Assembly (NCBI RefSeq): GCF_019429625.1
Contig: NZ_JAHXRW010000009.1
Location: forward strand, 62,001-126,000
DNA length: 64,000 nt
Reading direction: 5' to 3'
DNA from: Celeribacter sp. PS-C1
GTDB lineage: Bacteria > Pseudomonadota > Alphaproteobacteria > Rhodobacterales > Rhodobacteraceae
Shown one piece after another: positions 11,204 to 26,506 of the stretch. A program made the position numbers and the translations under genes. The notes beneath the pieces are model-generated. The model was not told the origin of the DNA, did no database searches, and was given only the letters and a program-made list of their open reading frames with translations. Position 1 is the stretch's first letter; every line of letters begins with the position of its first letter.

Positions 11204-11716
11204 TTACAAGTAAGAGGTCGGAATAGCCGTGGTGAATTTCAGTTCTTCCATGGAGATCATGGAATTCACCTGGCTGAACTCGAGGCGTTGGATCATGCGT
11301 TTGTAGACCGCATCATAGGCGGCCATATCTGCCACTACGACCTTGAGGATGTAATCCACGGTGCCTGTGAGCCGGTAGGCTTCGACCACCTCCGGGATGT
11401 CGTCGATCAGTTCGCGAAAGGTGTTGAGCCAATCGATCTCGTGGCGCGAGGTGCTGACCCCGATGAACACGGTCAGCGGCACATTGGCGCGGGTCTGATC
11501 CACGAGGACGACGCGCTTCTTGATCACGCCGGCCTCTTCCATGCGCTTGATCCGCCGCCAACAGGGGTTGGTCGACAGGCCGACCGCTTCGGAAATGGCC
11601 TGAATCGGCGTGTCGCTGTCCTGTTGAAGGATTTCCAGAATGCGTTGATCGGTCTCGTCGAAAGTCATGCTTTCGATCGGTTTCGATCCGGTTTTGCGTG
11701 GGCGAGGCTCTGTCAT
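11204..11716 (-). CDS. Lrp/AsnC-family transcriptional regulator
   Basis: The protein has 170 residues. An N-terminal helix-turn-helix (~20-65, IQAISEAVGLSTNPCWRRIKRMEEAGVI) is followed by an Lrp/AsnC ligand-binding and oligomerisation domain (~85-160) that typically senses an amino acid. The first ~16 residues are a basic extension. The start at 11716 overlaps the stop of the upstream VOC gene (ATGA), which favours coupled translation. It is the last gene of the SDR-VOC-Lrp unit and may control it or the divergent Dpp operon. The ligand is unknown. Confidence 0.92.
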   Translation of the reverse strand: MTEPRPRKTGSKPIESMTFDETDQRILEILQQDSDTPIQAISEAVGLSTNPCWRRIKRMEEAGVIKKRVVLVDQTRANVPLTVFIGVSTSRHEIDWLNTFRELIDDIPEVVEAYRLTGTVDYILKVVVADMAAYDAVYKRMIQRLEFSQVNSMISMEELKFTTAIPTSYL

Positions 11717-12573
11717 GCGGAAACAAACTCCAAAATTACACCGGCTGAAAATTCGGGTCCCACGGCGAGGCCGGAGGCGGTGTCACAAATCTTTACATTC
11801 GCATCTTTAAGGCAGTCGCGCAGGGTTTCAAGGCTGCGCACTTTGATGCGAAGCGCTGTAAACGCTCCCTTGGTCGTGCCGGAGATGTTGATGTCTGGAT
11901 AAAGAGCGGCCATGCGCGCCGCCGTCGCAAGGATGAGCGGTGCGGAATTGGGGCCTGTCGTGATGGTCGTGAGCCCGTCTTCGGTCTGCACCGCGCCGTC
12001 GGCCCAAAGTCTCGCAAAGCGCGGGGCGTCCTCCTCGGGTGTCTCGGAGATCGCAAGCACGGCATCCAATCCGCAGGCGGTGTTGGCGTGTTCCAAAAGT
12101 TCTGGAACCCACACCGTCTCACGGGTCTTGTGTTGGCACATGAACACCGTGCCGAATGGGGTCTCATCCGTGGTAAAGCTGACGGTGGAAAAGGCCGCGA
12201 TGCCTTCGGAGCCGTCGGGCAGGGGGACCGGGCGAGAGAAACTTCCAAGCCCTTGTGTCGTAATACCCAAAGCGCCAAGAGCCTCTGCGGCAGCTTCGGC
12301 GTCGTCAATCCGACAGGCAATGGCATGAAGGCCCTGACCCATCGTGGCCAACATCTCGCGACGTGAGGCGTTTAGTTCGGTCGGGGTGACGATGCCCAAA
12401 AGCTCGAAGTAGTCTTCCGGGAACATGATGGTGTAATTCGCCGTGCCTTTGGCGGCAGAATGTGTGCCGCGTGGCGAGAGGGTAAAGCCGAGCGCTTCAT
12501 ATTGCGCGGCGGCATTGTCGAGGTCGTCTACGAGGGCAAAGCAATGGTCGATGCCTTTGACGGGATGGGTCAT
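11713..12573 (-). CDS. VOC (glyoxalase-like) family protein
   Basis: The 286-residue protein has the vicinal-oxygen-chelate fold, starting with IDHCFALVDDLDNAAAQYEALGF, a typical glyoxalase opening. A second half-module lies after about residue 145 (TVWVPELLEHANTACGLDAV). It resembles the glyoxalase_3-like group of unknown activity. The family uses a metal to isomerise, cleave or oxidise small molecules, but the substrate cannot be named from sequence. It lies 25 bases after the SDR gene and overlaps the Lrp gene. Confidence 0.8.
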   Translation of the reverse strand: MTHPVKGIDHCFALVDDLDNAAAQYEALGFTLSPRGTHSAAKGTANYTIMFPEDYFELLGIVTPTELNASRREMLATMGQGLHAIACRIDDAEAAAEALGALGITTQGLGSFSRPVPLPDGSEGIAAFSTVSFTTDETPFGTVFMCQHKTRETVWVPELLEHANTACGLDAVLAISETPEEDAPRFARLWADGAVQTEDGLTTITTGPNSAPLILATAARMAALYPDINISGTTKGAFTALRIKVRSLETLRDCLKDANVKICDTASGLAVGPEFSAGVILEFVSA

Positions 12574-12598: not shown

Positions 12599-13309
12599 TT
12601 ACGTGCGAACGGGGCTCAGAACGATTTCCGGCAGGCAGATGCCGGGCTGCATTTCGGCGACGAAGAGCGCGGTTTTCGCCATATCCTCCGGTTGGATCAT
12701 CGCGGCCATTTGTGCGGCATCGAAGCCGGGGCGTTTCGCCAAAAGCGGCGTCGCCACCTCGGCGGGGCAAAGGGCGGTGGAGCGGATGCCGTTCTTGCCC
12801 TCCTCGTCATTGAGGCTGAGCGAGAGATCGGACAGCGCATGTTTCGAGGCGCCATAGACCACGCCGCTGACCGGTGAATGAAACCGCCCGGCCCAGCTCG
12901 ACGTATGGATCATCACGCCGTCTTTCTGGGTGCGCATGATCGGCAGGCAGGCGGCGATCACATTGAGCGCACCGGTGATGTTGACGTCGATCACCCGATC
13001 CCAGCTCTCCCAATCGAGATCGGCCCAGCTGCGTTTCGGGATGTTGAGGCCGGCGTTGTTGCACAGCACATTGAGCCCACCGGACCAGTTCGCAATGCTT
13101 TGCGCGGCTTCTGACATGCTGGTGCGGTCTGTGACATCTCCGGGCAGGATCAGCACGGCTTCTGGGTCGGGCAGGGTGGCGGCCACGGCCTCAAGGCTGT
13201 CGCGCCCGCGCGCGGTCAGCGCCACGCGATATCCGGCCTCTGCAAAGCCCTTTGCCATGGCCGCGCCGATGCCGGAGCCCGCGCCGGTGATCCATGCAGT
13301 TTTTGTCAT
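12599..13309 (-). CDS. Short-chain dehydrogenase/reductase
   Basis: The 236-residue classical SDR has the NAD(P) motif TGAGSGIG (8-15), NNAG, a catalytic Ser in HTSSWAG and the YGASK (YxxxK) pair. It should oxidise or reduce a hydroxyl or keto group in the cytoplasm. It is the first gene of the leftward SDR-VOC-Lrp unit, divergent from the Dpp-type operon. The substrate is unknown. Confidence 0.9.
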   Translation of the reverse strand: MTKTAWITGAGSGIGAAMAKGFAEAGYRVALTARGRDSLEAVAATLPDPEAVLILPGDVTDRTSMSEAAQSIANWSGGLNVLCNNAGLNIPKRSWADLDWESWDRVIDVNITGALNVIAACLPIMRTQKDGVMIHTSSWAGRFHSPVSGVVYGASKHALSDLSLSLNDEEGKNGIRSTALCPAEVATPLLAKRPGFDAAQMAAMIQPEDMAKTALFVAEMQPGICLPEIVLSPVRT

Positions 13310-13507: not shown

Positions 13508-15103
13508 ATGAGTTTGACGATAAAACAGGCGGGGCTGACGCTCGCCATGACCGGGGCTCTGAGTTCCGTGGCCTTCTCGGCCCAAGCGCAGGAAGAGGTC
13601 CAAAAAGGCGGCACCGCCGTCATCCACATGATTTCCGAACAGCGTATCCTCAATCCGGGCCTGCGTGCCTCCACTGGGGTGTACAACATCACCGGCAAGA
13701 TCATGGAGCCGCTGATCGACAAAAGCTACGACGGCTACGAGCCGGTGCTGGCGACCGAATGGTCCAGCTCCGACGACGGTCTGGCGATCACGGTGCAGCT
13801 GCGCGAAGGTGTGAACTGGCACGATGGCGAACCCTTCACCTGTGACGACGTGGCGTTTTCGGCGATGGAGCTTTGGAAAGAGTTGCTGAACTACTCCTCC
13901 GCGCTTCAGGCCAACCTTGAAAGTGTCGATTGCCCGACCCCGCACACGGCAGTGTTCAACTATTCCAAACCGATGCCGCTCGAACTCTTTGTCGCCGCCA
14001 TGCCCGATCTGGGCCATCCGGTGCCGAAACACCTGTTCGAGGGCACCGACATCCTGAAGAACGAATACAACACCGCGCCCGTCGGCACCGGTCCGTTCAA
14101 ATTCGTTGAATATGAGCGCGGGCAATATGTGCTGGCCGAGAAAAACGAAGACTACTGGCGCGAGGGCTACCCCTATCTCGACCGCATCGTCTGGCGTTTC
14201 ATCAAGGATAAATCCGCCGCCGCCGCAGCCCTTGAGGCGGGCGAGGTGCATGAATCCGGCTTTATCGGCGTTTCCATGGCCGATGTGGCGCGCTTCGGCG
14301 AAGACGATCGCTTTGACGTCGGCACGCAGGGCTATGAAAACAACGTCGCCCACTCGACCGTTGAATTCAATCACCGCAACCCGATCCTCGCCGACCTGAA
14401 AGTGCGTCAGGCGATGTATCATGGTCTCGACATCGACTATGCGATCCAGACGATCATGCATGGCTTTGCAAAACCGGGCCGTGGTCCGGTGCCGAGCGCC
14501 GGTGGCATCAACTACACCGACGACGTGCCGACCTATGCCTACGATCCGGAACTCGCCAAGCAGATGCTCGACGAAGCTGGCTATCCGGTGCAGGACGATG
14601 GCTTCCGCTTTCACCTGAAACACCGTCCGGCGCCTTGGGGTGAATACACCCAGCTTTGGGCGGAATATTACGCGCAGGCGATGAAAGAGATCGGCATCGA
14701 TGTCGAAATCCTGACCAACGACGCGCCTGGGTTCCTCAATGGCGTTTATCGTGACCACGATTTCGACACTGCGAACGGCTGGCACCAGTTCCGGTCTGAC
14801 CCGGCTGTGTCCACCATGGTGTGGCTGCGGTCCGGTCAGCCGAATGGCACGCCCTGGACCAACCAGTTCGGTTGGAAGAGCGACGAGATTGACCAGATGA
14901 TCGACGATGCGGCCTCCGAGCTGGACGTCGAGAAGCGCGCCGAGATGTATCACGTGATTCAGGCCAAGGCGATGGAAGAGCTTCCGGTGATCTTCGCGAT
15001 CGAGCACCCGTTCATTTCCGTCACCTCGACCAAGCTCCGTAACCACCACAACACGCCGCGGTGGAACTCTTCGAGCTGGTACGATCTCTGGCTCGAACAG
15101 TGA
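13508..15103 (+). CDS. Dpp/Opp-type ABC importer, substrate-binding protein
   Basis: The 531-residue family-5 solute-binding protein is of the kind that binds peptides, opines or glutathione. A Sec signal peptide ends near AQAQEE (~residue 31). Start 13508 gives an intact signal peptide; the in-frame ATG at 13454 would add 18 polar residues. The domain is full length for the family. It leads an operon with two permeases, a double ATPase and four enzymes likely to process the import, so its ligand is expected to be a small amide or cysteine-derived compound. That ligand is inferred. Confidence 0.93.
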   Translation: MSLTIKQAGLTLAMTGALSSVAFSAQAQEEVQKGGTAVIHMISEQRILNPGLRASTGVYNITGKIMEPLIDKSYDGYEPVLATEWSSSDDGLAITVQLREGVNWHDGEPFTCDDVAFSAMELWKELLNYSSALQANLESVDCPTPHTAVFNYSKPMPLELFVAAMPDLGHPVPKHLFEGTDILKNEYNTAPVGTGPFKFVEYERGQYVLAEKNEDYWREGYPYLDRIVWRFIKDKSAAAAALEAGEVHESGFIGVSMADVARFGEDDRFDVGTQGYENNVAHSTVEFNHRNPILADLKVRQAMYHGLDIDYAIQTIMHGFAKPGRGPVPSAGGINYTDDVPTYAYDPELAKQMLDEAGYPVQDDGFRFHLKHRPAPWGEYTQLWAEYYAQAMKEIGIDVEILTNDAPGFLNGVYRDHDFDTANGWHQFRSDPAVSTMVWLRSGQPNGTPWTNQFGWKSDEIDQMIDDAASELDVEKRAEMYHVIQAKAMEELPVIFAIEHPFISVTSTKLRNHHNTPRWNSSSWYDLWLEQ

Positions 15104-15113
15104 TCTGACACTG

Positions 15114-15146
15114 GCGGGCGCGTTGTCCCTGCGCGCCCGCTCTTTT
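15114..15146 (+). other. Hairpin with T tail after the binding-protein gene
   Basis: GCGGGCGCG (15114-15122) pairs perfectly with CGCGCCCGC (15132-15140) and is followed by TCTTTT. It lies between the binding-protein stop and the permease start. It looks like a partial terminator, allowing less permease than binding protein to be made. Confidence 0.65.
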
Positions 15147-15181
15147 GACATTTGCCCATGATCCCGAAGGATCCAAAGACA

Positions 15182-16171
15182 ATGACACTGCACATGCCCC
15201 CGATCCTGACTTACGCGCTGAGGCGGTTGGTTCAGGCCATTCCCGTGGTCATCCTGATCATGATCGGCACATTTCTTTTGCTCAAACTTGCCCCCGGCGA
15301 CACGGTCGATGCGCTTGTGGGCGACATGGGGGGCGCAGATGCCGCCTTCATCGCGCGGCTTCGGGCCGAATACGGTCTCGATCAGCCGATCTGGGTGCAG
15401 CTCTGGCGCTATATGGTCAAGCTGGCGAGCTTCGATTTCGGCTGGTCCTTTGTTTATGAGCAACCCGTGGCGACCGTTTTGATGGACCGCCTCGGCACCA
15501 CGCTGATGCTGATGGCTGCCTCTCTGAGCATCGCCTTTTGCGCTGGGATCGTGTTGGGCGCCATTGCCGCGCGCCGCGCCTATTCCGCGACCGACAACCT
15601 GATTTCCGTTCTGGGCCTCGTGTTCTACGCCACGCCGTCGTTCTTCCTGTCGCTGATGCTGATGCTGGTCTTCTCTGTAAAGCTCGGCTGGCTGCCGGTG
15701 GGCGGGATCAAGACCATCGCCGCCTTTTACACCGGCTGGGATCACGTCTGGGACGTGGTGCGTCACCTGATCATGCCGACCACCGCTTTGTCGCTGATCT
15801 ATCTGGCGTTTTACCTGCGCCTGATGCGGGCGTCCGTGATGGAGGTTGCCGATCTCGATTACGTCCGCACCGCCCGCGCCAAAGGCGCCCGCGAAGGCCG
15901 TCTTATGACCCACCACATTATGCGCAACGCGCTCTTGCCGGTGGTCACACTTTTGGGGTTGCAATTCTCCACCGTTTTGGGCGGCTCCATCGTGGTTGAA
16001 ACCATCTTTACCCTGCCGGGGCTGGGCCAGCTGGCCTACCAGTCCGTCGTCCAGCGCGACATGAACACCTTGATGGGGATCATCTTCCTCTGCGCCATCA
16101 TCGTTGTCGTCGTCAATTTCCTCACCGACCTGCTCTATGCACGTCTCGACAGCCGGATCGAACTCGCATGA
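15182..16171 (+). CDS. Dpp/Opp-type ABC importer, permease B
   Basis: The 329-residue DppB-type permease has about six membrane spans and the conserved cytoplasmic EAA-like loop (DYVRTARAKGARE). Start 15182 is preferred over 15152 because AAGGA lies ~10 bases before it and the first hydrophobic span then begins at the usual position. It forms the channel with the next permease, whose start overlaps its stop codon. Confidence 0.9.
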   Translation: MTLHMPPILTYALRRLVQAIPVVILIMIGTFLLLKLAPGDTVDALVGDMGGADAAFIARLRAEYGLDQPIWVQLWRYMVKLASFDFGWSFVYEQPVATVLMDRLGTTLMLMAASLSIAFCAGIVLGAIAARRAYSATDNLISVLGLVFYATPSFFLSLMLMLVFSVKLGWLPVGGIKTIAAFYTGWDHVWDVVRHLIMPTTALSLIYLAFYLRLMRASVMEVADLDYVRTARAKGAREGRLMTHHIMRNALLPVVTLLGLQFSTVLGGSIVVETIFTLPGLGQLAYQSVVQRDMNTLMGIIFLCAIIVVVVNFLTDLLYARLDSRIELA

Positions 16172-17043
16172 CCTTCGCCGATACAGAAATCGCCCCGCCC
16201 GAGCCGCCGCGCTACGTCATGTTCTGGCGCCGTTACAAACGCAACCGTGCCGCTTTGCTTGGCCTCGTGCTCTTTGTCCTCGTCGTGCTCATGGCGTTGA
16301 CGGCGGGCATCATTGATCCCGGTGACCCTCTGCGCCGCGCGGGGGAACCGCTCACTCCGCCGTTCATGAACTGGGACACGCCTTTGGGCACTGACCAATT
16401 GGGCCGCGATGTGCTCTCTGGTGTCTTCTACGGCGCGCGCATCTCGCTTTTGATCGGCGTGGTCGCCACCCTCGTGGCCATCGTCATCGGTGTCGTCATC
16501 GGCGCCCTTGCTGGCTACTTTGGCGGTTGGGTCGATGACGTGCTGATGCGCATCACCGAGGCCTTTCAGACCATCCCGAACTTTGTCCTCCTTTTGACGC
16601 TCGTCGCCATCATGGGCTCCAAGATCGAATGGATCACGCTGGCCATTGGTATCGTCAGTTGGACCGCACCCGCCCGTATGGTGCGCGCCGAGTTCATGTC
16701 GCTGCGAAATCGAGAATTCGTCGATGCCGCGCGCAATCTGGGCGTGTCGAACACCTCGATCATCTTCCGCGAAATCCTCCCCAACGCTCTGCCGCCGATC
16801 GTGGTTTACGCCTCCGTCATCATGGCGCTGTCGATCCTGATGGAAAGCGCGCTGGCGTTTCTCGCGCTGGGCGATCCGAACTACGCAAGCTGGGGCAATA
16901 TGATCGGTCAAGGCCGCGCCGTGCTGCGCTCCGCGCCTTACTGTGCCGTGATCCCCGGCATCGCGATCATCCTGACTGTGCTGTCCTTCTCGCTTCTGGG
17001 CGAAGGGCTCAACGATGCGCTCAATCCGAGGCAGAAGAAATGA
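16168..17043 (+). CDS. Dpp/Opp-type ABC importer, permease C
   Basis: The 291-residue DppC-type permease has a long cytoplasmic N-terminus followed by hydrophobic spans. It shows the family segment DQLGRDVLSGVFYGARISL and an EAA loop REFVDAARNLGVSN. ATGA overlaps link it to both the upstream permease and the downstream ATPase. Confidence 0.92.
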   Translation: MTFADTEIAPPEPPRYVMFWRRYKRNRAALLGLVLFVLVVLMALTAGIIDPGDPLRRAGEPLTPPFMNWDTPLGTDQLGRDVLSGVFYGARISLLIGVVATLVAIVIGVVIGALAGYFGGWVDDVLMRITEAFQTIPNFVLLLTLVAIMGSKIEWITLAIGIVSWTAPARMVRAEFMSLRNREFVDAARNLGVSNTSIIFREILPNALPPIVVYASVIMALSILMESALAFLALGDPNYASWGNMIGQGRAVLRSAPYCAVIPGIAIILTVLSFSLLGEGLNDALNPRQKK

Positions 17044-18686
17044 CCCAGACACCTCCTCCCGTTCTCGATCTCTGCAAACTTGAGATCTCTTTGCCCAAGG
17101 GCGCGGATCGCCCCTATGCCCTCGAAGGCCTCGATCTGACCATCAACGCGGGCGAGATTGTCTGTCTCGTCGGCGAAAGTGGCTCCGGCAAATCGCTGTG
17201 TGCAGGCGCCATCATGGGCCTTCTGCCGGAGCCGCATGTGCGCGTCACCGGTGGTGCGATCCGGTTCATGGGCGAAGAGCTTCGCGGCAAATCGGATGCC
17301 GAGATGCGCAAGCTGCGCGGCGCTGATATTTCGATGATCTTCCAGGAACCTATGACCGCGCTCAACCCGCAGAAAACCGTGGGCTGGCAGATCGACGAAG
17401 TGCTGCGGCTCCACACCAAAATGACCAAGGCGGAGCGCAAAGCTCGCGCGCTTGAGATGTTGGAGCGCGTCCACATCCCGGAACCTAGCTCCGCCTATAA
17501 CGCCTATCCGCATCAAATCTCCGGCGGCCAACGTCAGCGCGTGATGATCGCCATGTCTTTGGTGCTTTCGCCGAAACTCATCATCGCCGACGAACCGACC
17601 ACGGCGCTCGATGTGACGACCCAGCTTCAGATCCTCAAACTCATTCGGGAGTTGCAGGAAGAAGAGGGCGCGGGCGTTCTTTTCATCACCCACGACTTTG
17701 GCGTGGTGGCGGAGATTGCCGATAAGGTGGCCGTGCTCTGTCGCGGCGAATTGGTGGAGAGCGGCACGACGGATGCGGTGCTCAACCGCCCGCAGCATCC
17801 TTACACCCGTGCGCTGATCGGGGCCGTTCCTGCACTCACCCCGCCGCCGGTCAAAGCCGCCTCTGATGCGCCTGTCGTGCTCCAGGGCACGGGGTTGAAA
17901 AAGACCTTCGCCGCGCGTGGCGGATTGTTGTCCGGCAAACGCAAGGCGGTGACAGCGGTCAAGGATTTGACCTTTGAACTGCGTCAGGGCGAAACCCTTG
18001 GCGTGGTGGGCGAAAGTGGATCTGGCAAGACCACCGTGTCGCGCATCGTCACGCGTCTTTTGGAATGTGATCATGGCTCCGTCGAGTTGGACGGCACCGA
18101 TCTTTTGGCCGCGACGCCGAAAGAATTGCGCGCGTTGCGTCAGCACATTCAAATGGTGTTCCAGGACCCGATGGCCTCTCTCAATCCGCGCAAACGTGTG
18201 GTCGATCTCATCGCGCAGGGTCCTATCGTCCATGGGGCCGATCCGAAAAAGGCCCGCGAAGACGCGAAGCGGCTTTTGGAGCTGGTCGAACTGTCCCCCG
18301 CCGCCGCGAACCGTTTTCCGCATGAGTTCTCTGGCGGTCAGCGCCAGCGCATCGGCATCGCCCGCGCGCTTGCGATGGAGCCCAAGGTGATCGTGGCCGA
18401 CGAACCCGTCTCCGCGCTTGACGTTTCGGTGCAGGCGCAGGTTTTGAAACTGCTCGCAGACCTGCGCGACCGGCTTAACCTGTCCTTGCTCTTCGTCACC
18501 CATGATCTGCGCGTCGCAGCTCAACTCTGTGACCGGATCATCGTTATGCAAAAGGGCGAAATCGTGGAAAGCGGGCTCACCGCCGAGGTCTTCGCCAACC
18601 CGCAGCACCCCTATACGCAAAACCTGCTCTCTTCCATTCCGGGCCGCGACTGGACACCCCCGTCGCTGCACACGGATGCCGCCTGA
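17040..18686 (+). CDS. Dpp/Opp-type ABC importer, fused double ATPase
   Basis: The 548-residue protein holds two complete ABC ATPase domains, equivalent to DppD and DppF in one chain. Domain 1 (~1-265) has GESGSGKS, ISGGQRQR and LIIADEPTTAL. Domain 2 (~280-548) has GESGSGKTT, FSGGQRQR and VIVADEPVSAL. Each ends with the peptide-importer extension NRPQHPYTRAL or ANPQHPYTQNL. The start at 17040 overlaps the permease stop (ATGA); the open frame extends much further upstream but only as a shadow of the permease gene. Both nucleotide sites look intact. Confidence 0.95.
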   Translation: MTQTPPPVLDLCKLEISLPKGADRPYALEGLDLTINAGEIVCLVGESGSGKSLCAGAIMGLLPEPHVRVTGGAIRFMGEELRGKSDAEMRKLRGADISMIFQEPMTALNPQKTVGWQIDEVLRLHTKMTKAERKARALEMLERVHIPEPSSAYNAYPHQISGGQRQRVMIAMSLVLSPKLIIADEPTTALDVTTQLQILKLIRELQEEEGAGVLFITHDFGVVAEIADKVAVLCRGELVESGTTDAVLNRPQHPYTRALIGAVPALTPPPVKAASDAPVVLQGTGLKKTFAARGGLLSGKRKAVTAVKDLTFELRQGETLGVVGESGSGKTTVSRIVTRLLECDHGSVELDGTDLLAATPKELRALRQHIQMVFQDPMASLNPRKRVVDLIAQGPIVHGADPKKAREDAKRLLELVELSPAAANRFPHEFSGGQRQRIGIARALAMEPKVIVADEPVSALDVSVQAQVLKLLADLRDRLNLSLLFVTHDLRVAAQLCDRIIVMQKGEIVESGLTAEVFANPQHPYTQNLLSSIPGRDWTPPSLHTDAA

Positions 18687-18692
18687 GGATTT

Positions 18693-20321
18693 ATGATGTC
18701 ACTGGAATTTAAAGATATCCGTAGCGCTCTGATCGGTGAGGGGGCGGCGATGTCGGGCCCCTTCGGACCGCGTGCGCTGATCTATGCGGATTATGTTGCC
18801 TCCGGCCGCGCGCTTGGCTTTATCGAAGACGCGATCCGCACCCATGTTCTGCCCTACTATGGCAACACTCACACCGAGACCTCCTTTGTCGGACGGCGCA
18901 CCACGCAGCTGCGTGAAATGGCGCGCGAAGCGGTGCGTTCGGCGGTCGATGCGGATGAGAACCACGCGGTGATCTTCACCGGCTCGGGCGCCACCGGCGC
19001 GGTCGACAAGCTGGTGCGGGCCTTCGCGATGAAAGGTCTCTCTGAGGGGGTCGTTTTTGTCGGCCCCTATGAGCATCACTCCAACGATCTGCCCTGGCGT
19101 GAAAGTGGTGCAGAACTGGTGCGCATTCCTCTGAACGCGGCGGGCACAATCTGTCTTAAGGCGCTGGAGCAGGCCCTCAAAACCCATGCCGACGCGCCGC
19201 TCAAAATCGGGGCCTTTTCCGCCGCCTCAAACGTCACCGGCGTGCGCACCGATCTGCGGGCCATTGCCAAACTGCTCCACGCGCATGAGGCTTTCTGTAT
19301 CGCCGATTTCGCCGCCGCCGCGCCCTATATGCCGGTGGAACTTTCGGCAACCTTTGAGGGTGCAGGCGACCGGATCGATGCCGCCGTGATCTCTCCGCAT
19401 AAATTCCCGGGCGGTCCGGGGGCGTCCGGTGTACTGATCGCGGACCGAAGCCTGTTCGACACCGCGCGTCCGACGCTGACGGGCGGCGGCACGGTGAGCT
19501 ATGTCACCTCCGAAGGCCACAGCTACATCACCGATCCCGAGCATCGCGAAGAAGGCGGTACGCCCGCCATCGTCGACAACATCCGCGCCGGCATGGTGAT
19601 GCAGCTCAAGCGTGACATGGACGAGGCGCGTGTCGAGGCCCGCGAAACCGTGCTGACCCGCCGGATGGAAGAGGCGCTGCGCGCCATTCCGGGGATGGAG
19701 CTTTTGGGGCCGTCCAACGTGCCGCGTCTGGGGATTTTCTCGTTTAACCTACGCGTCAAAGGCAAGCTCTTGCACCACAACTATGTCGTGGCGCTGCTCA
19801 ATGACCTCTTCGGCATTCAGGCGCGCGGAGGCTGTTCCTGTGCGGGGCCTTATGGACACTCTCTGCTCGACATTGACCTGACGACAAGCGCGCGCCATGA
19901 GGCCGCTGTCCAGCATGGCCACTCGATCTTCCGTCCGGGCTGGGCGCGGTTCGGCGTGAATTGGTTCTTTGAAGACGAGGATGTGGACAAGATCGCCACC
20001 GCGATCCGCTTTGTCGCCGAGCACGGTCTCGACATGCTGGCCTATTACAGGTTGGACGCCGTTGAGGGCATTTGGCGCGCCACGCCTGCGTTCGAGGACA
20101 CTTGCCCCTCCGCGCTCTCCGCGCTGTGGGAAGGGCAGGCAACCAGCACCGATACAGTGCCTGATTTCACCACCTGTCTCGCGCAGGCTGAGGCGCTGGC
20201 CGAAACCGCCAAAACCCTGACGTGTTGCAAAGGGCCGGACCTGTCCGCCGAAGAAGAAGCGCTGCGCTGGTTCTGGCTGCCACAGGAAGTCACCGGCTTG
20301 ACCACGGAAGGGGCTGCGTGA
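18693..20321 (+). CDS. Class-V PLP enzyme, cysteine-desulfurase-like
   Basis: This is a 542-residue class-V aminotransferase-fold enzyme. Lys237 in ISPHKFPG is the expected PLP-binding lysine. C381 and C383 lie in GGCSCAGPYGH, aligned with the catalytic Cys loop of SufS-type desulfurases (GHHCAQP), with C383 at the key position. A ~100-residue C-terminal extension is beyond the usual ~410-residue desulfurase. Two adjacent ATG codons (18693 and 18696) are possible starts. It follows the importer genes by six bases and precedes the flavoenzyme by a one-base overlap. A role in taking sulfur from an imported cysteine derivative fits, but lyase activity on another amino acid is also possible. Confidence 0.8.
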   Translation: MMSLEFKDIRSALIGEGAAMSGPFGPRALIYADYVASGRALGFIEDAIRTHVLPYYGNTHTETSFVGRRTTQLREMAREAVRSAVDADENHAVIFTGSGATGAVDKLVRAFAMKGLSEGVVFVGPYEHHSNDLPWRESGAELVRIPLNAAGTICLKALEQALKTHADAPLKIGAFSAASNVTGVRTDLRAIAKLLHAHEAFCIADFAAAAPYMPVELSATFEGAGDRIDAAVISPHKFPGGPGASGVLIADRSLFDTARPTLTGGGTVSYVTSEGHSYITDPEHREEGGTPAIVDNIRAGMVMQLKRDMDEARVEARETVLTRRMEEALRAIPGMELLGPSNVPRLGIFSFNLRVKGKLLHHNYVVALLNDLFGIQARGGCSCAGPYGHSLLDIDLTTSARHEAAVQHGHSIFRPGWARFGVNWFFEDEDVDKIATAIRFVAEHGLDMLAYYRLDAVEGIWRATPAFEDTCPSALSALWEGQATSTDTVPDFTTCLAQAEALAETAKTLTCCKGPDLSAEEEALRWFWLPQEVTGLTTEGAA

Positions 20322-21619
20322 TGTCCGTCGAATTTCCGAAATCTATTTGGGCGGCGACCGCGCCCGAACGCAATTTGTCTGCGCCGCTCTCTGGTGTCGA
20401 GGAAACCGATGTTGCCGTGATCGGCGCAGGGTTCACTGGCCTGTCTGCAGCCATCGAGGCCCGCAAACGCGGCCATGCGGTCACCATCGTCGAAGGTAAA
20501 GCGGCCGGTTGGGGCGCGTCGGGACGTAACAACGGTCAGGTCATTCCGATCCTCACCTCCGCCGAACCCGATGTCTGGGTTTCGCGCTATGGCGAGGCGG
20601 GCAAACGCATGGTGCGGCTGATTGGCAACTCCGGCGATGTGCTCTTTGATCTGGTGCGCGAATTCGACATGCAGGCCGAAGCGGAACAGAACGGCTGGTT
20701 CCAGCCCGCTCATAGCCCCGGACGTGTGAAACTGTCGCAAAAACGGGTCGATGCATGGCAGCGCTATGGCTTTCCCGCGGAGCTGAAAGACGCCAAGCAA
20801 TGCGCGGACATTCTGGGCACCGATTTCTGGTATGGCGGTATGTTCAACCCGACGGGCGGCCATATCAACCCACTCGCATTGGCACGTGAAATGGCGCGGA
20901 TCGCGGAACATCTCGGCGCGGTGATCCATGAGGACAGCCCCGTCACGTCGTATGAGCGCATCGGCAATGAATGGGTGATCAAGACCGCGCAGGGCACGCT
21001 CAAGGCTCGGGCACTGATCCTTGCCACCAACGCTTACACGGGCGAGTTGGCTCCGCGTCTGGCGCCCCGCATCGCACGCTCTGTCGTGCCGGTTCTGAGC
21101 TGGCAAATGGCGACGGAGCCTGTAGGTGACAACCTGCGTCAGAAAATTCTGCCGGGGCGTCAGGCGGTCTCTGACACGCGTGGGGACTTGCGGTTCTTCC
21201 GCTATGATGCGCGCAATCGGTTGATCACCGGGGGTGCCGTGATGGGCTCGTTCGATGTCGCCAACCGCGTGCGCAAGAAAGCCGCGCGCAGTTTGGCCGA
21301 GGCCTTCCCCGAGTTGGGCGTGCCGGAGATGACCCATGTCTGGTCGGGTTATATTGGTATGAACTGGGACCGGTTTCCGCGCGTTCACAAACTCGGCCCG
21401 GATGGCTGGGCCTGGGTTGGTTGTAACGGGCGCGGCGTCGCGCTTGGCACCTCTTTGGGCCGCGAACTGGCCCGCGCCGCCACAGGCCAGCCCGAAGACG
21501 AACTTGCCCTGCCGGTGACCGAGCCGCATCCTTTCCCGGTGCACAGCTTTGTGCGCCGCTTTGCCCCCACCTATCTGGCTTGGCTCAAGCGCCAGGACCA
21601 TAAGGAAGTGAACCTATGA
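20321..21619 (+). CDS. DAO-family FAD-dependent amine oxidoreductase
   Basis: The 432-residue flavoprotein has the dinucleotide-binding motif VAVIGAGFTGLSAA (~30-43) and GWGASGRNNGQV, typical of the D-amino-acid-oxidase / PuuB group that oxidises primary or secondary amines to imines. The C-terminal GCNGRGVALGTSLGRELA contacts FAD in this family. The start at 20321 forms a TGATG overlap with the preceding gene. In this operon it could oxidise a ring amine, such as a thiazolidine, to a thiazoline. That substrate is inferred from the neighbouring hydrolase. Confidence 0.85.
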   Translation: MSVEFPKSIWAATAPERNLSAPLSGVEETDVAVIGAGFTGLSAAIEARKRGHAVTIVEGKAAGWGASGRNNGQVIPILTSAEPDVWVSRYGEAGKRMVRLIGNSGDVLFDLVREFDMQAEAEQNGWFQPAHSPGRVKLSQKRVDAWQRYGFPAELKDAKQCADILGTDFWYGGMFNPTGGHINPLALAREMARIAEHLGAVIHEDSPVTSYERIGNEWVIKTAQGTLKARALILATNAYTGELAPRLAPRIARSVVPVLSWQMATEPVGDNLRQKILPGRQAVSDTRGDLRFFRYDARNRLITGGAVMGSFDVANRVRKKAARSLAEAFPELGVPEMTHVWSGYIGMNWDRFPRVHKLGPDGWAWVGCNGRGVALGTSLGRELARAATGQPEDELALPVTEPHPFPVHSFVRRFAPTYLAWLKRQDHKEVNL

Positions 21620-22110
21620 CTGAAGAAAAAAAGATGGACCTGAACGACGTTCCGATCCTCCTGCGCCGCCGGATTGAGGCGATGATGCTCAAACATGTGC
21701 TCGACGTGATCACCGAGCGTTCTGGTCGCGAAGAGGCCGAGGCCGTGATCGGTGCGGCCTGTTCCAAATCGGCGATTGAACAGGGGCAGATGCTGGCCGA
21801 AGAGTTGGGCCACGCGCCCGACCTGACGGATTTCGCCGCGATCCAGCCGAACTGGACCCGCGAGGATGCGCTTCGGATCGAGACCATCGAGATGTCTGAA
21901 GAAAAGATGGATTTCAACGTGGTGAAATGCCGGTACGCGGAGATGTATCAGGAGATGGGGCTGGGCGATATAGGCCACCTTCTGTCCTGCAACCGAGATG
22001 GTGATTTCTGCATCGGCTACAATCCTGAGATCGAAATGACCCGGACCCAGACGATCATGAAAGGCGCAAGCCACTGCGATTTCCGTTACAGAATGAAGAA
22101 GGAGGCCTGA
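21616..22110 (+). CDS. L-2-amino-thiazoline-4-carboxylate hydrolase family protein
   Basis: The 164-residue protein matches, from memory of the family, the small ATC-hydrolase-type proteins of Pseudomonas cysteine-precursor pathways. The conserved C-terminal half runs KCRYAEMYQEMGL, LLSCNRDGDF, NPEIEMTRTQTIM and GASHCDFRYR. Those enzymes open the thiazoline ring to give an N- or S-carbamoyl cysteine. It overlaps the flavoenzyme gene by four bases and is followed one base later by an M20 amidohydrolase, the same enzyme pairing as in ATC degradation. Whether ATC itself is the substrate is not certain, since the family is broader than its named activity. Confidence 0.8.
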   Translation: MTEEKKMDLNDVPILLRRRIEAMMLKHVLDVITERSGREEAEAVIGAACSKSAIEQGQMLAEELGHAPDLTDFAAIQPNWTREDALRIETIEMSEEKMDFNVVKCRYAEMYQEMGLGDIGHLLSCNRDGDFCIGYNPEIEMTRTQTIMKGASHCDFRYRMKKEA

Positions 22111-22111
22111 G

Positions 22112-23281
22112 ATGGCTGTCGAAAATTGGGTCGCCAAACAGGTCGCTGATCTGACGGAGTTCCGCCGCGATCTGCATATGAATCCAGAGCTTCTTTATGA
22201 TGTCGAACGCACGGCGCAGAAGGTGGCCGATGCGCTTCGGGCCGCTGGGGTCGACGAGGTCCATGAGGGCATCGGTAAAACCGGCGTCGTCGGAGTGATC
22301 CGGGGTCAAAGCAATGTGTCCGGGCGCTCTATTGGTCTGCGCGCCGATATGGATGCGCTGCCTATTATTGAAGAAACCGGCAAGCCCTACGCCTCGCAAG
22401 TGCCGGGCAAAATGCACGCCTGCGGCCATGATGGACACACCACGATGCTCTTGGGGGCTGCGCGGCATCTGGCGGAAAGCCGGGCCTTTGACGGGACCGT
22501 GATCGTGATCTTCCAACCCGCAGAAGAGGGCGGCGCCGGCGCGCGCGCGATGATCGAGGACGGGCTGTTCACCCGCTGGCCTTGTAATGAGGTCTATGGC
22601 ATGCACAATCGCCCGAACCTTCCGGTCGGGCAATTCATCATCAACTCAGGTCCGATCATGGGCTCTGTCGATGAGGTCAAAATCTCCATCACCGGTCGCG
22701 GCGGCCATGCGGCGCGCCCGGATCAGACGATTGACCCGCTGCCCATCGCGGGGGCGCTGTTGCAGGCGGTTCAGACGCTGACATCGCGCAATATGGACCC
22801 GATCGACAGTGCGGTGATCTCGCTCTGCACCATTCAGGCCGGAAATGCGTTCAACGTCATTCCGCAAGATGTGACCCTGACCGGCACGGTGCGCACGCTG
22901 CGCGAAGAAGTGCGCGACATGATCGAGGAACGCTTGTCGGCCATGGTCGGCAATATCGCCGCCGCCTACGGTGCGGTGGGTACGACCGAATACCTGCGCC
23001 ACTATCCGGTGACGGTGAACCACGAGCGTGAAACCGAACTGGCCGCCAAGGCTGCGCAAGAGGTGGCGGGCGTCGAAAATGTGTTCCTCGACATGCCGCA
23101 GACGCTGGGCGGAGAGGATTTCTCTTTTATGCTCAATGAGGTGCCCGGTGCGATGATCAATGTCGGCAACGGACCATCCGCAGCGCTGCACCACCCGAAA
23201 TACGATTTCAACGACGATGTGATCGCTTGGGGCAGTTCCTATTGGACGACTTTGGTGCGTCAACGTTTGCCACTGGCATAA
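22112..23281 (+). CDS. M20-family amidohydrolase
   Basis: The 389-residue metal-dependent hydrolase is of the hippurate hydrolase / N-acyl-amino-acid amidohydrolase group. RADMDALPI and the metal-binding MHACGHDGHTTM are intact, a dimerisation lid domain lies at ~185-300, and GGEDFSFM near the C-terminus carries another metal-site residue region. AAGGAGG (22099-22105) precedes ATG 22112. It ends the operon and would release a free amino acid, possibly cysteine, from an N-acyl or N-carbamoyl form. The family also removes acyl groups from many other amino acids. Confidence 0.92.
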   Translation: MAVENWVAKQVADLTEFRRDLHMNPELLYDVERTAQKVADALRAAGVDEVHEGIGKTGVVGVIRGQSNVSGRSIGLRADMDALPIIEETGKPYASQVPGKMHACGHDGHTTMLLGAARHLAESRAFDGTVIVIFQPAEEGGAGARAMIEDGLFTRWPCNEVYGMHNRPNLPVGQFIINSGPIMGSVDEVKISITGRGGHAARPDQTIDPLPIAGALLQAVQTLTSRNMDPIDSAVISLCTIQAGNAFNVIPQDVTLTGTVRTLREEVRDMIEERLSAMVGNIAAAYGAVGTTEYLRHYPVTVNHERETELAAKAAQEVAGVENVFLDMPQTLGGEDFSFMLNEVPGAMINVGNGPSAALHHPKYDFNDDVIAWGSSYWTTLVRQRLPLA

Positions 23282-24130: not shown

Positions 24131-25543
24131 TCAGGTCGCCTTTCTGGCGGACAGCCGCTCTGCGACACGTGCCATGGCCACGGCATAGTCAGTGACAATC
24201 TTTTCTTCGAGCGGGTGATGGCCGTCAGAGATCACCTTTTTCCCGCGGACCACGACATCGCCGATATGAAAGCCTCGTCCAGCGAAGACATGAAAGTCAA
24301 GCGCGGCCTCGGGATCGACGGGTAGCATCGCCGCCGGTTCCGGCGAGGTGATCTCGACGAAGCTGGCCATGCCGCCGACTGCAAGTCCCTGTTCCGGGCG
24401 CCCAGAGGCCCGCGCGCCGCCTTGGGCCGCACGGTTCCAGAGATTGGCGGCGACATGCGGTGTGTCCATCGCGGCCAAGACGTTGCGCTGACGGTCGCGA
24501 AGGCGCTGGCTGTATTCAAGCTGTTGCAGTTCCTGCGCGGCAAAGGTGGCGATGTTAGAATCTGAACCGATGCCGAAGACACCTCCCTGTGCGATGTAAT
24601 CGGTCGCCCGGAAAATGCCGTCGCCAAGGTTTGCCTCCGTCATCGGGCAAAGGCCGACGGTGGCACCCGATTTCGCAATCATTCCAACCTCGCGGTCGTC
24701 CAGATGGGTTGCGTGTATCAGGCACCAGCGCGCGTCGACCGGTGCGATGTCGAACAGCTGTTCCACTGGACGGCGACCGTTCCATGCCAGCGCGTCTTCG
24801 ACCTCTTTGACCTGCTCGGCGACGTGGATATGCACCGGGCTGTCGGGAATGAGGTCGTCGCGCAGTTCGAGAAGTTTCGCGATCTCTTCCGGCGTGGCGG
24901 CGCGCAGAGAGTGCGGGGCGATGCCAAGCGTATGGCCCGCAGCTTTGGCCGGTGCACGCAGGCTGTCGAGCATTTCGGCATAGCCGTCGAGGCTCTGGAT
25001 AAACCGCCGCTGCCCCTCCGTTGGAGTCAGCCCGCCAAAGTTGGAGTGCGCGTAGAACACCGGCAGATGCGTCAGATCGAGACCCGTGGCCTGAGCCGCC
25101 TCGAATATGCCAAGCGACAGCTCCTCGCGCCGCGCATAGGGCGTGCCGTCGAGGTCGTTGTGCACATAGTGGAATTCCACGATCCCGGTGTAGCCGCCCT
25201 TGAGCAGCGACAGATAGAGTCGTGCGGCGATGGCTTGCAGGTCCTCGGGCGACAGGGTCAGAGCGAAGAAATACATGATGTCGCGCCAGGACCAGAAACT
25301 GTCGATCGGGTTGCGGCGTACCTCTGACAGGCCCGCCATCGCGTATTGAAAGGCGTGGCTGTGCAGATCGGTGATCCCCGGCACGACGGGGTTGTCATAG
25401 ACCGCGAATCCTTCCGGGTTGTCGTCCTCGGCGGCGGATTGGATCAGGCCGTCGGGCGAAAACTGTACCGAAAGATTGCGCACCCAGCCATCGGGGGTCA
25501 GTGCAAGGCGGAAATGTGCGCCTTTGAGTGTCTCGAACGCCAT
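24131..25543 (-). CDS. hutF: Formimidoylglutamate deiminase (HutF)
   Basis: The 470-residue amidohydrolase-superfamily enzyme has metal-binding DLHSHAFQYAMAGL near the N-terminus and the later His and Asp regions HIHVAEQ, HATHLDD and GIGSDSN. The DLHSHAFQ motif is typical of HutF, which converts N-formimidoyl-L-glutamate to N-formyl-L-glutamate and ammonia in histidine breakdown. The start at 25543 forms a TAATG overlap with hutG, and the upstream extension of the frame is a shadow of hutG. No hutH, hutU or hutI lies in the window, so either they are elsewhere or the pair acts on another formimidoyl compound. Confidence 0.9.
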   Translation of the reverse strand: MAFETLKGAHFRLALTPDGWVRNLSVQFSPDGLIQSAAEDDNPEGFAVYDNPVVPGITDLHSHAFQYAMAGLSEVRRNPIDSFWSWRDIMYFFALTLSPEDLQAIAARLYLSLLKGGYTGIVEFHYVHNDLDGTPYARREELSLGIFEAAQATGLDLTHLPVFYAHSNFGGLTPTEGQRRFIQSLDGYAEMLDSLRAPAKAAGHTLGIAPHSLRAATPEEIAKLLELRDDLIPDSPVHIHVAEQVKEVEDALAWNGRRPVEQLFDIAPVDARWCLIHATHLDDREVGMIAKSGATVGLCPMTEANLGDGIFRATDYIAQGGVFGIGSDSNIATFAAQELQQLEYSQRLRDRQRNVLAAMDTPHVAANLWNRAAQGGARASGRPEQGLAVGGMASFVEITSPEPAAMLPVDPEAALDFHVFAGRGFHIGDVVVRGKKVISDGHHPLEEKIVTDYAVAMARVAERLSARKAT

Positions 25544-26370
25544 TACGATTGCTCCGTCTTGGGGGTGAAATCGGCCATGACTGCGATCAGCTGCGCCAGC
25601 ACCTTTTTCAGGCGCTCGGCGCGGTCGGGGAGGTAGGTCCACGGGGTCTCTTCGATCATGTAACAGTCCTGCGCGATCTCGATTTGCAGGGCGTGCACGT
25701 TTTGCTCCGGTTGGCCGTAATGGCGGGTGATGTAGCCGCCTTTGAAGCGCCCATCGCGCACTACGCTGTAGTCACTGGCCTGAAGCGCCGCGAGGGCGGC
25801 GTCTGAGAGCTCTTGCGCGCAGGCTGCTCCGGAATTGGTGCCGAGATTGAGGTCCGGCAGACGGCCCTCGAAAAGGCGCGGAATGTGGCTGCGGATCGAG
25901 TGCATGTCCAGCAACACGCAATAGCCATGCGTGGCTTTGATACGGGTGATCTCTGCGGCCAGGGCGGCGTGATGTGGCGCCCACCATGTCGCTATTCGTT
26001 TGCTTTGTTCCGCCTCATCCGGCTCGGTGCCGGCCCGATAGAGCGGCACGCCGTCGAAGGTGATCGTCGACATCAGCCCCGTCGTCGCGCTCGTGTAGAG
26101 CGGCTTGTCATCCGGTGGACGGTTCAGGTCGACCGCATAGCGCGTGATCTGCGCGGTCATCAAGCTGGCGCCGTCGGGCAAGAGATCGCGGGCGATGCGA
26201 TCCATGTGCCAATCGGTGTCGCTCAGGTCGAGCGCTTCGGGAGTAAGAGCCTCGCGAAGTGAGTCGGGCACCAACGTTCCGGCATGGGGAACGTGAAGCA
26301 AAAGCGGGGAGCTGCCTCTAATCTGTTCAAAAACTGGGCGTTTTTCGGGGGCGGCCGGTGAATCCTGCAT
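25543..26370 (-). CDS. hutG: N-formylglutamate deformylase (HutG)
   Basis: The 275-residue protein of the N-formylglutamate amidohydrolase family releases formate from N-formyl-L-glutamate. Conserved segments include LLLHVPHAGTLVP, DLNRPPDDKPLY and LLDMHSIRSH. Start 26370 is chosen because AAGGA lies six bases upstream, while ATG 26385 has no ribosome site. It is the first gene of the hutG-hutF pair and may be followed by the IclR gene. It diverges from the TAXI-TRAP genes across 136 bases holding TTGACA at 26401-26406 but no clear -10. Confidence 0.9.
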   Translation of the reverse strand: MQDSPAAPEKRPVFEQIRGSSPLLLHVPHAGTLVPDSLREALTPEALDLSDTDWHMDRIARDLLPDGASLMTAQITRYAVDLNRPPDDKPLYTSATTGLMSTITFDGVPLYRAGTEPDEAEQSKRIATWWAPHHAALAAEITRIKATHGYCVLLDMHSIRSHIPRLFEGRLPDLNLGTNSGAACAQELSDAALAALQASDYSVVRDGRFKGGYITRHYGQPEQNVHALQIEIAQDCYMIEETPWTYLPDRAERLKKVLAQLIAVMADFTPKTEQS

Positions 26371-26506
26371 CTCCGATCCTTTCATATTTGAAAACTGTTA
26401 TTGACATACAAAATTCTCAGGTCAAGAAATTATGCATCCGACACCCGAGGGCCGCTCGGTCGGAAACGTGCGAGCGTGCACCTGTTAACCAACAATGGAG
26501 GATTTC

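Follow-up and report, generated by a model that had tools for sequence, protein, structure and literature searches.

Known pathways and the proposed scheme

Reaction of cysteine with aldehydes can give thiazolidines. A cluster of eight genes that may well encode the uptake and breakdown of such a ring is present in Celeribacter sp. PS-C1, on the forward strand of a 64,000-nucleotide stretch of contig NZ_JAHXRW010000009.1 (positions 62,001 to 126,000; the whole stretch is referred to as the window). Among the described systems, the Pseudomonas pathway from 2-aminothiazoline-4-carboxylate (ATC) to L-cysteine involves, in the outline given in PMC10821248, a racemase, a hydrolase, a carbamoyl intermediate and an amidohydrolase, and that outline names no oxidase. 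The pathway proposed here resembles this outline in that one hydrolase would open a thiazoline derived from cysteine and another would release cysteine. It differs in having no carbamoylase and in including, in addition, a flavin oxidase, an M20 enzyme of the aminoacylase type and an enzyme acting on the C-S bond of cysteine. Further, thiazolidine-4-carboxylate is converted into N-formylcysteine by mitochondria and bacteria, and also enzyme-free in buffer, as reported in PMC9814826, and the oxidation of thioproline by ProC of Escherichia coli is mentioned in PMC12899673. The oxidation of thiazolidine-4-carboxylate by proline dehydrogenase or ProC has the same substrate and product as proposed here. 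However, known thiazolidine oxidation is performed by proline enzymes, whereas the present candidate is a DAO-family enzyme encoded in one operon with an importer, a hydrolase and a deacylase. The original prediction had regarded the combination of an ATC-type hydrolase with an oxidase, a pyridoxal phosphate (PLP) enzyme and an importer as new. As the activity reported in PMC9814826 is already in print, the novelty would reside in the operon and its enzymes; no operon for thiazolidine breakdown was found in the open-licence literature searched.

The operon is proposed, with a probability of about 0.58, to import a thiazolidine-4-carboxylate and to return it to cysteine via oxidation, ring opening, deacylation and sulfur removal. 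Gene content, coupling, conservation, partner exchange, conserved residues and folds were computed, and from these we infer every reaction, their order and the substrate. The importer would take up the cysteine-aldehyde ring, after which the DAO flavoenzyme would oxidize the ring N-C2 bond to give a thiazoline. The ATC-hydrolase-like protein, with its V4R fold, would add water at C2 and open the ring to an N-acylcysteine, the acyl group of which would be stripped by the M20 enzyme to give cysteine. Finally, the PLP enzyme would remove the sulfur, in this strain by a SufS-like persulfide route and in other hosts by a beta-elimination of the Cds1 type, some of them using RidA as well. Thioproline, formed from formaldehyde and cysteine, is the leading guess for the substrate, in which case ring opening would yield N-formylcysteine. 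Rings carrying a 2-methyl or 2-carboxy group, from acetaldehyde or glyoxylate, fit just as well. They may suit the M20 enzyme better, since acyl groups larger than formyl are the better-known substrates of its type, a point in favour of a ring substituted at C2 over thioproline. A dedicated pathway that salvages thioproline through a flavin-dependent oxidation and a ring-opening hydrolase of V4R fold, giving formate, cysteine and sulfide, is put forward as a tentative and rather doubtful specification. Penicilloate and other beta-lactam-derived thiazolidines were also considered as substrates, and nothing noticed at the locus points there.

Gene organization and conservation of the cluster

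The eight coupled genes, in the families named by the original prediction, were borne out by coordinates and profile scores, all open reading frames (ORFs) being present at 13508-23281 in the following order:

13508-15103, + strand: periplasmic substrate-binding protein of the Dpp/Opp type (PF00496 SBP_bac_5, 270.8 bits)
15152-16171 (start may be 15185), + strand: importer permease (PF00528 BPD_transp_1, 138.5 bits)
16168-17043, + strand: importer permease (PF00528 BPD_transp_1, 117.6 bits; OppC_N)
17040-18686, + strand: two-domain importer ATPase (two ABC_tran and two oligo_HPY stretches)
18693-20321, + strand: class-V PLP enzyme, SufS-like (Aminotran_5, 170.1 bits; K237 and C383 conserved)
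20318-21619 (ATG at 20321), + strand: predicted DAO-family flavin amine oxidase or dehydrogenase (PF01266, 209.3 bits)
21616-22110, + strand: ATC-hydrolase-family protein with a V4R-like fold (PF14196, 124.5 bits; three invariant cysteines)
22112-23281, + strand: predicted M20 aminoacylase-type metallohydrolase (Peptidase_M20 with M20_dimer; TIGR01891, 346.5 bits)

The ORF of the binding protein is open from 13454, the start at 13508 being favoured by a signal-peptide-like N-terminus. From the permeases onward, every gene junction is an overlap or a gap of 1 to 6 bases. The two permease genes overlap by 4 bases, as do the second permease gene and the ATPase gene (given the start at 17040, which was chosen in the analysis, the domain scan having run from the longer ORF start at 16629) and the DAO and ATC-hydrolase-like genes; the PLP and DAO genes overlap too. 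The gaps amount to 6 bases between the ATPase and PLP genes and to 1 base between the ATC-hydrolase-like and M20 genes.

This gene set recurs in relatives, indicating that the clustering is more than chance. A scan of species genomes gave 567 confirmed candidates for the ATC-hydrolase-like gene, the best 80 of which were taken as the nearest loci, a set biased to near relatives; most of their hosts presumably belong to genera of the Rhodobacterales and Hyphomicrobiales. Partner genes in these loci were counted by identity and coverage of matches. The pairing of hydrolase and oxidase asserted by the original prediction was kept among these near relatives, as a DAO gene was present in 77 of the 80 loci (74 by a stricter test for an intact long ORF), always on the same strand as the ATC-hydrolase-like gene (77/77) and with the aligned ends less than 200 bases apart in 71 of the 77. 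Similarly, an M20 gene of at least 44% identity occurred in 67 loci (68 at a looser identity cut), in every case less than 200 bases from the ATC-hydrolase-like gene and in the same orientation.

Within the genus, the ATC-hydrolase-like gene was present in 11 of 19 other genomes, and its product is 98% identical to counterparts in three named Celeribacter genomes. The PLP, DAO, ATC-hydrolase-like and M20 genes were retained in all nine same-genus neighbourhoods compared (some of the 80 nearest loci stem from the same genomes), four of which carry a Dpp-type importer (L030-L033) and five a Liv-type importer together with an Lrp gene (L034-L038). This four-gene core persists through an importer swap within the genus. 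A single dedicated importer type is thus not kept, as Dpp-type and Liv-type importers replace each other; the range of compounds transported is wide for either kind.

Exchange of the enzyme proposed to act on cysteine

The best evidence for cysteine as the product of the pathway is that two unrelated enzymes acting on the C-S bond of cysteine replace each other, an exchange that points to a pathway ending in cysteine. A class-V PLP gene was found in 35 of the 80 nearest loci and a Cds1-like PLP gene, unrelated to the former and belonging to the cysteine-synthase family (PALP, PF00291 in L082), in 12, and no locus carried both. The hypergeometric probability of this mutual exclusion is 4.8e-4, although the loci are related by descent and not independent, so that such small probabilities overstate the case. 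The Cds1-like proteins of two plasmid loci outside the 80, namely L021 (Agrobacterium) and L029 (Azospirillum), scored 561.7 and 533.2 bits on NF052478, which is under its cut-off of 600, with the next family at only 153.4 and 131.6 bits. Judged from these scores, both proteins likely work like Cds1, an enzyme reported in PMC8389258 to make H2S and pyruvate from cysteine. The reaction of the L-cysteine desulfhydrase Cds1 (Rv3684) is the likely end step in relatives carrying a Cds1-like gene; such a gene was not found in the operon of the window, where the SufS-like class-V enzyme is encoded instead. A RidA gene (at least 50% identity) was found in five of the 80 loci, all five of which also carry a Cds1-like gene, and it adjoins the Cds1-like gene in the Azospirillum locus L029. 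The usual task of RidA is the clearing of 2-aminoacrylate from such eliminations.

The best solved chains for the class-V PLP protein of the cluster are cysteine desulfurases (E 2.3e-32). Its residues K237 and C383, which we take to be the PLP lysine and the catalytic cysteine of a SufS-type enzyme, are present in at least 97% of 38 sequences (the window and 37 relatives), and its Cys loop aligns with that of SufS. Another class-V protein of the genome reached 462.2 bits on PF00266, compared with 170.6 bits for the protein of the cluster, indicating that the latter is probably not the housekeeping desulfurase. A further variant is perhaps found in L156, where a PF14196 gene (35% identical) lies beside a Cds1-like gene (60%) and no oxidase was found nearby.

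Two sets of partners of the hydrolase

The hydrolase occurs in two settings: beside a carbamoylase-family enzyme, with no oxidase, or beside an oxidase together with an enzyme of the aminoacylase type. A search of 398 genomes of the phylum for hydrolase relatives gave 12 matches at 1e-30, nine neighbourhoods of which were counted, the other three being the window, G126 and G167. A carbamoylase-family gene adjoins the hydrolase gene in all five relatives outside the class of the window, and a DAO gene was seen in none of these five (one contig measuring 5.4 kb); four of them carry a Liv-type importer, the fifth being the 5.4-kb contig. A carbamoylase-family partner was also present in the plasmid loci L024-L027 (4/4), and no DAO gene was found there in 24 kb. 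All nine carbamoylase-family partners passed the hydantoinase/carbamoylase model TIGR01879 with 394 to 492 bits (cut-off 204). The matches of the phylum search within the class (L230-L233) have neither a DAO nor a carbamoylase gene, save for a 24% DAO match in L230, and the same holds for G126 and G167, where neither gene was found.

The M20 protein of the cluster reached only 32.4 bits on TIGR01879, and hence does not carry the carbamoylase mark of the canonical ATC pathway. It belongs to TIGR01891 (346.5 bits, cut-off 153.75), as do the M20 proteins of the four other oxidase-linked clusters tested (347 to 368 bits), and its nearest solved structure is YxeP (1ysj; E 1.6e-80). Residues C104, H106, E138, E139, H165 and H360, presumably the metal-ligand positions, are present in at least 97% of 74 sequences. 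The two sets of partners fit the chemistry: 2-aminothiazoline carboxylate is already unsaturated and gives a carbamoyl product, which suits a carbamoylase without an oxidase, whereas a thiazolidine needs prior oxidation and gives an acyl product, which suits an oxidase with an aminoacylase-type enzyme.

In Paracoccus sulfuroxidans (L088), the surroundings of an ATC-hydrolase-like gene of the oxidase-linked group contain neither a DAO nor an M20 gene; approximately 3 kb away lies a gene of the hydantoinase/carbamoylase family (TIGR01879, 326.5 bits), which is possibly a switch back to the use of ATC. Martelella (L022:12001-13987) has an ATC-hydrolase-like gene that branches basally to the oxidase-linked group. 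The next gene there bears another annotation, NAD(P)/FAD-dependent oxidoreductase, and its product gave no match to the DAO protein of the window.

The ATC-hydrolase-like protein

The product of 21616-22110 belongs to PF14196 ATC_hydrolase (cut-off 28.1 bits) and is the sole match of the genome at E 0.001. Its predicted model (pLDDT 92.1) matched the phenol sensor domains of MopR and PoxR and the Bet3 subunits of TRAPP (probability 1.00, TM ~0.55). The protein has the fold of the V4R and MopR/PoxR domains in common, although the latter are sensors, not enzymes, and are only 11-14% identical to it in the fold matches. This agrees with a remark in PMC5847659 that a methanogen domain resembles the HNOB, V4R and ATC-hydrolase domains and has a three-cysteine cluster in common with the latter two.

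The comparison of residues used only matches of at least 110 residues that contain no stop, and the Azospirillum loci were left out. Seven residues (C105, C125, R127, D128, R143, T146 and C154) were constant in oxidase-linked (86/86, window included), carbamoylase-linked (9/9) and other members (28/28). Positions 56 and 100 largely separate the two linked groups, as position 56 is A in all nine carbamoylase-linked proteins versus Q in 79 of the 86 oxidase-linked ones, and position 100 is Y in the former nine versus F in 85 of the 86. A tree of the ATC-hydrolase-like proteins (103 of 141 rows after thinning; built by a quick method with one support value, and with some long branches) contained a group of 58 rows with SH-aLRT 97 that holds 53 oxidase-linked proteins, and the oxidase-linked label required 7 changes on the tree compared with 34.5 in shuffles. 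The Azospirillum proteins of L023 and L029 were placed outside the main oxidase-linked group, the latter on a long branch, which suggests that the pairing of DAO and ATC-hydrolase-like genes arose or was acquired more than once. In addition, a second, divergent ATC-family protein is encoded in Liv-type clusters (L064:2672-3334 and L069:3212-3820) and Azospirillum clusters (L023:6811-7320 and L029:6702-7196). These proteins keep the three conserved cysteines; they score 40.2 (L064) and 46.4 bits (L069) on PF14196, and those of Azospirillum are just 19-24% identical.

The oxidase

Among solved chains, the DAO protein is by sequence nearest to the L-proline dehydrogenase 1y56_B of P. horikoshii (E 1.6e-11). 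Compared by fold, its predicted model (pLDDT 85.5) comes closest to the beta chains of sarcosine oxidase, and 1y56_B ranks sixth (TMt 0.81). Sarcosine oxidase beta and L-proline dehydrogenase act on secondary amines. The L-pipecolate oxidase AmaA model NF050086 was matched by all 28 aligned DAO proteins, that of the window included, the latter with approximately 244 bits (243.7-244.3), which is below the cut-off of 600. This score was considered as a pointer to cyclic imino acids and retained only as weak evidence, because a different protein of the genome scores higher, at 264.7 bits. Elsewhere, the genome has a group of three more DAO-type genes (G000:C39:30218-37256), one of which is nearer to the L-pipecolate oxidase model than the DAO gene of the cluster.

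Weighing of the proposed pathway and its alternatives

The proposed return of a thiazolidine to cysteine gains its outline from the replacement by Cds1-like genes and from the contrast between the two sets of partners; the reactions given in the original prediction stay at the level of inference, and several observations weigh against them. As 33 of the 80 nearest loci carry neither PLP gene and 13 lack the M20 gene, the last steps are not always encoded at the locus. The class-V PLP protein scores 161.6 bits on its best NCBIfam model, TIGR01979 SufS, far below the cut-off of 475.1, and the 264.7-bit score found elsewhere in the genome indicates that the resemblance of the DAO protein to L-pipecolate oxidase is not specific. 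The VOC and SDR genes upstream of the cluster fit nowhere in the scheme. Moreover, the proteins grouped under the ATC-hydrolase label form a mixed family. Of 385 genomes sampled evenly across the class, 56 had a PF14196 match (the window's own included), and 62 of the 68 distinct places outside the window were compared as neighbourhoods (the six weakest were left out and some contigs measured just 5 kb). A DAO gene was present in only one of these, the other 61 lacking it, and class-V, carbamoylase-like and Cds1-like genes were present in none, one and one, respectively. Clustering of the neighbours yielded no broadly shared partner that could be read, as antisense ORFs confused it. The PF14196 label alone was therefore discarded as a predictor of the pathway; the family name says little, and the link to the pathway is a property of a subclade.

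The same mixed neighbourhoods favour a sulfur-free ring, or another cyclic or N-alkyl amino acid, as substrate, in which case the ATC-hydrolase-like protein would be misnamed and the PLP enzymes would act on another beta-substituted amino acid. Most of the PF14196 neighbourhoods examined in the class lack the partners found here, the oxidase is a member of a broad group of amine oxidases, and the breadth of Liv and Dpp importers would allow such a compound. However, the Cds1 model fits the two alternative PLP proteins tested far better than any other model does, and the characterized L-ATC hydrolase acts on a cysteine-derived ring according to the outline in PMC10821248; this alternative is judged improbable. 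Salvage of N-acylated cysteine or of cysteine conjugates, of the mercapturate or YxeP type, is judged similarly unlikely. It would have the M20 enzyme deacylate the conjugate and the PLP enzyme break its C-S bond, leaving the other half of the conjugate to the oxidase and the ATC-hydrolase-like protein. Both the Cds1-like and SufS-like partners fit such a release of cysteine, and YxeP, which we take to be a deacetylase of N-acetyl-S-(2-succino)cysteine, is the closest relative of the M20 protein among solved structures. Yet, the oxidase and the ATC-hydrolase-like protein are the most constant members (77 of the 80 loci), followed by the M20 gene (67) and either PLP gene (47), which is the reverse of what conjugate salvage would lead one to expect.

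An ordinary ATC pathway, running from ATC via carbamoylcysteine to cysteine with an oxidase as a mere extra, would account for the hydrolase family and for the seven residues identical in carbamoylase-linked and oxidase-linked members. It is nevertheless very unlikely, as the locus has no carbamoylase, its M20 partner is of the aminoacylase type on the scores given above (346.5 bits on TIGR01891 versus 32.4 bits on TIGR01879), ATC requires no oxidation, and the two groups differ at positions 56 (A versus Q) and 100 (Y versus F).

Neighbouring genes

The limits 13508-23281 that had been set for the system enclose the eight genes properly and omit three divergent neighbours that recur in the nearest loci:

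12599-13309, - strand: SDR oxidoreductase (PF00106; in 37 of the 80 loci)
11713-12573, - strand: VOC (Glyoxalase_3) protein (PF13468, 121.2 bits; in 62 of the 80 loci)
11204-11716, - strand: Lrp/AsnC regulator (PF01037 and PF13412; in 25 of the 80 loci)

The Lrp/AsnC gene is a possible candidate regulator of the cluster; its count is probably an undercount, as many fetched flanks stop short of its position. The VOC protein might serve as an epimerase or deal with adducts of aldehydes. Among the 20 best homologues of the DAO protein in the class sample (38-50% identical), a divergent ATC-family gene was nearby in only one case (L194), and a VOC gene stood beside the DAO homologue with no ATC gene nearby in six (L187, L190, L191, L192, L193 and L195), so that VOC and DAO genes may have been paired before DAO and ATC genes were. 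On the other side of the cluster (24131-26385, - strand), genes for formimidoylglutamate deiminase (HutF) and N-formylglutamate deformylase (HutG) lie beside an IclR regulator gene and look like ordinary histidine-utilization genes. A link with histidine or formyl-amino acids through them was rejected, as neither HutF nor the IclR gene was present in any of the 80 relatives.

Possible meaning for thiazolidine metabolism and the PF14196 family

The operon would supply a route of thiazolidine breakdown with named genes and would assign a function to a subclade of the poorly understood PF14196 family, the ATC-hydrolase-like protein of which would show the V4R sensor fold working as an enzyme. According to PMC13131673, thioproline drives the toxicity of formaldehyde in E. 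coli, but not in Methylobacterium extorquens. If true, the thioproline pathway would be an organized route that undoes a product of aldehyde damage and uses it as food.

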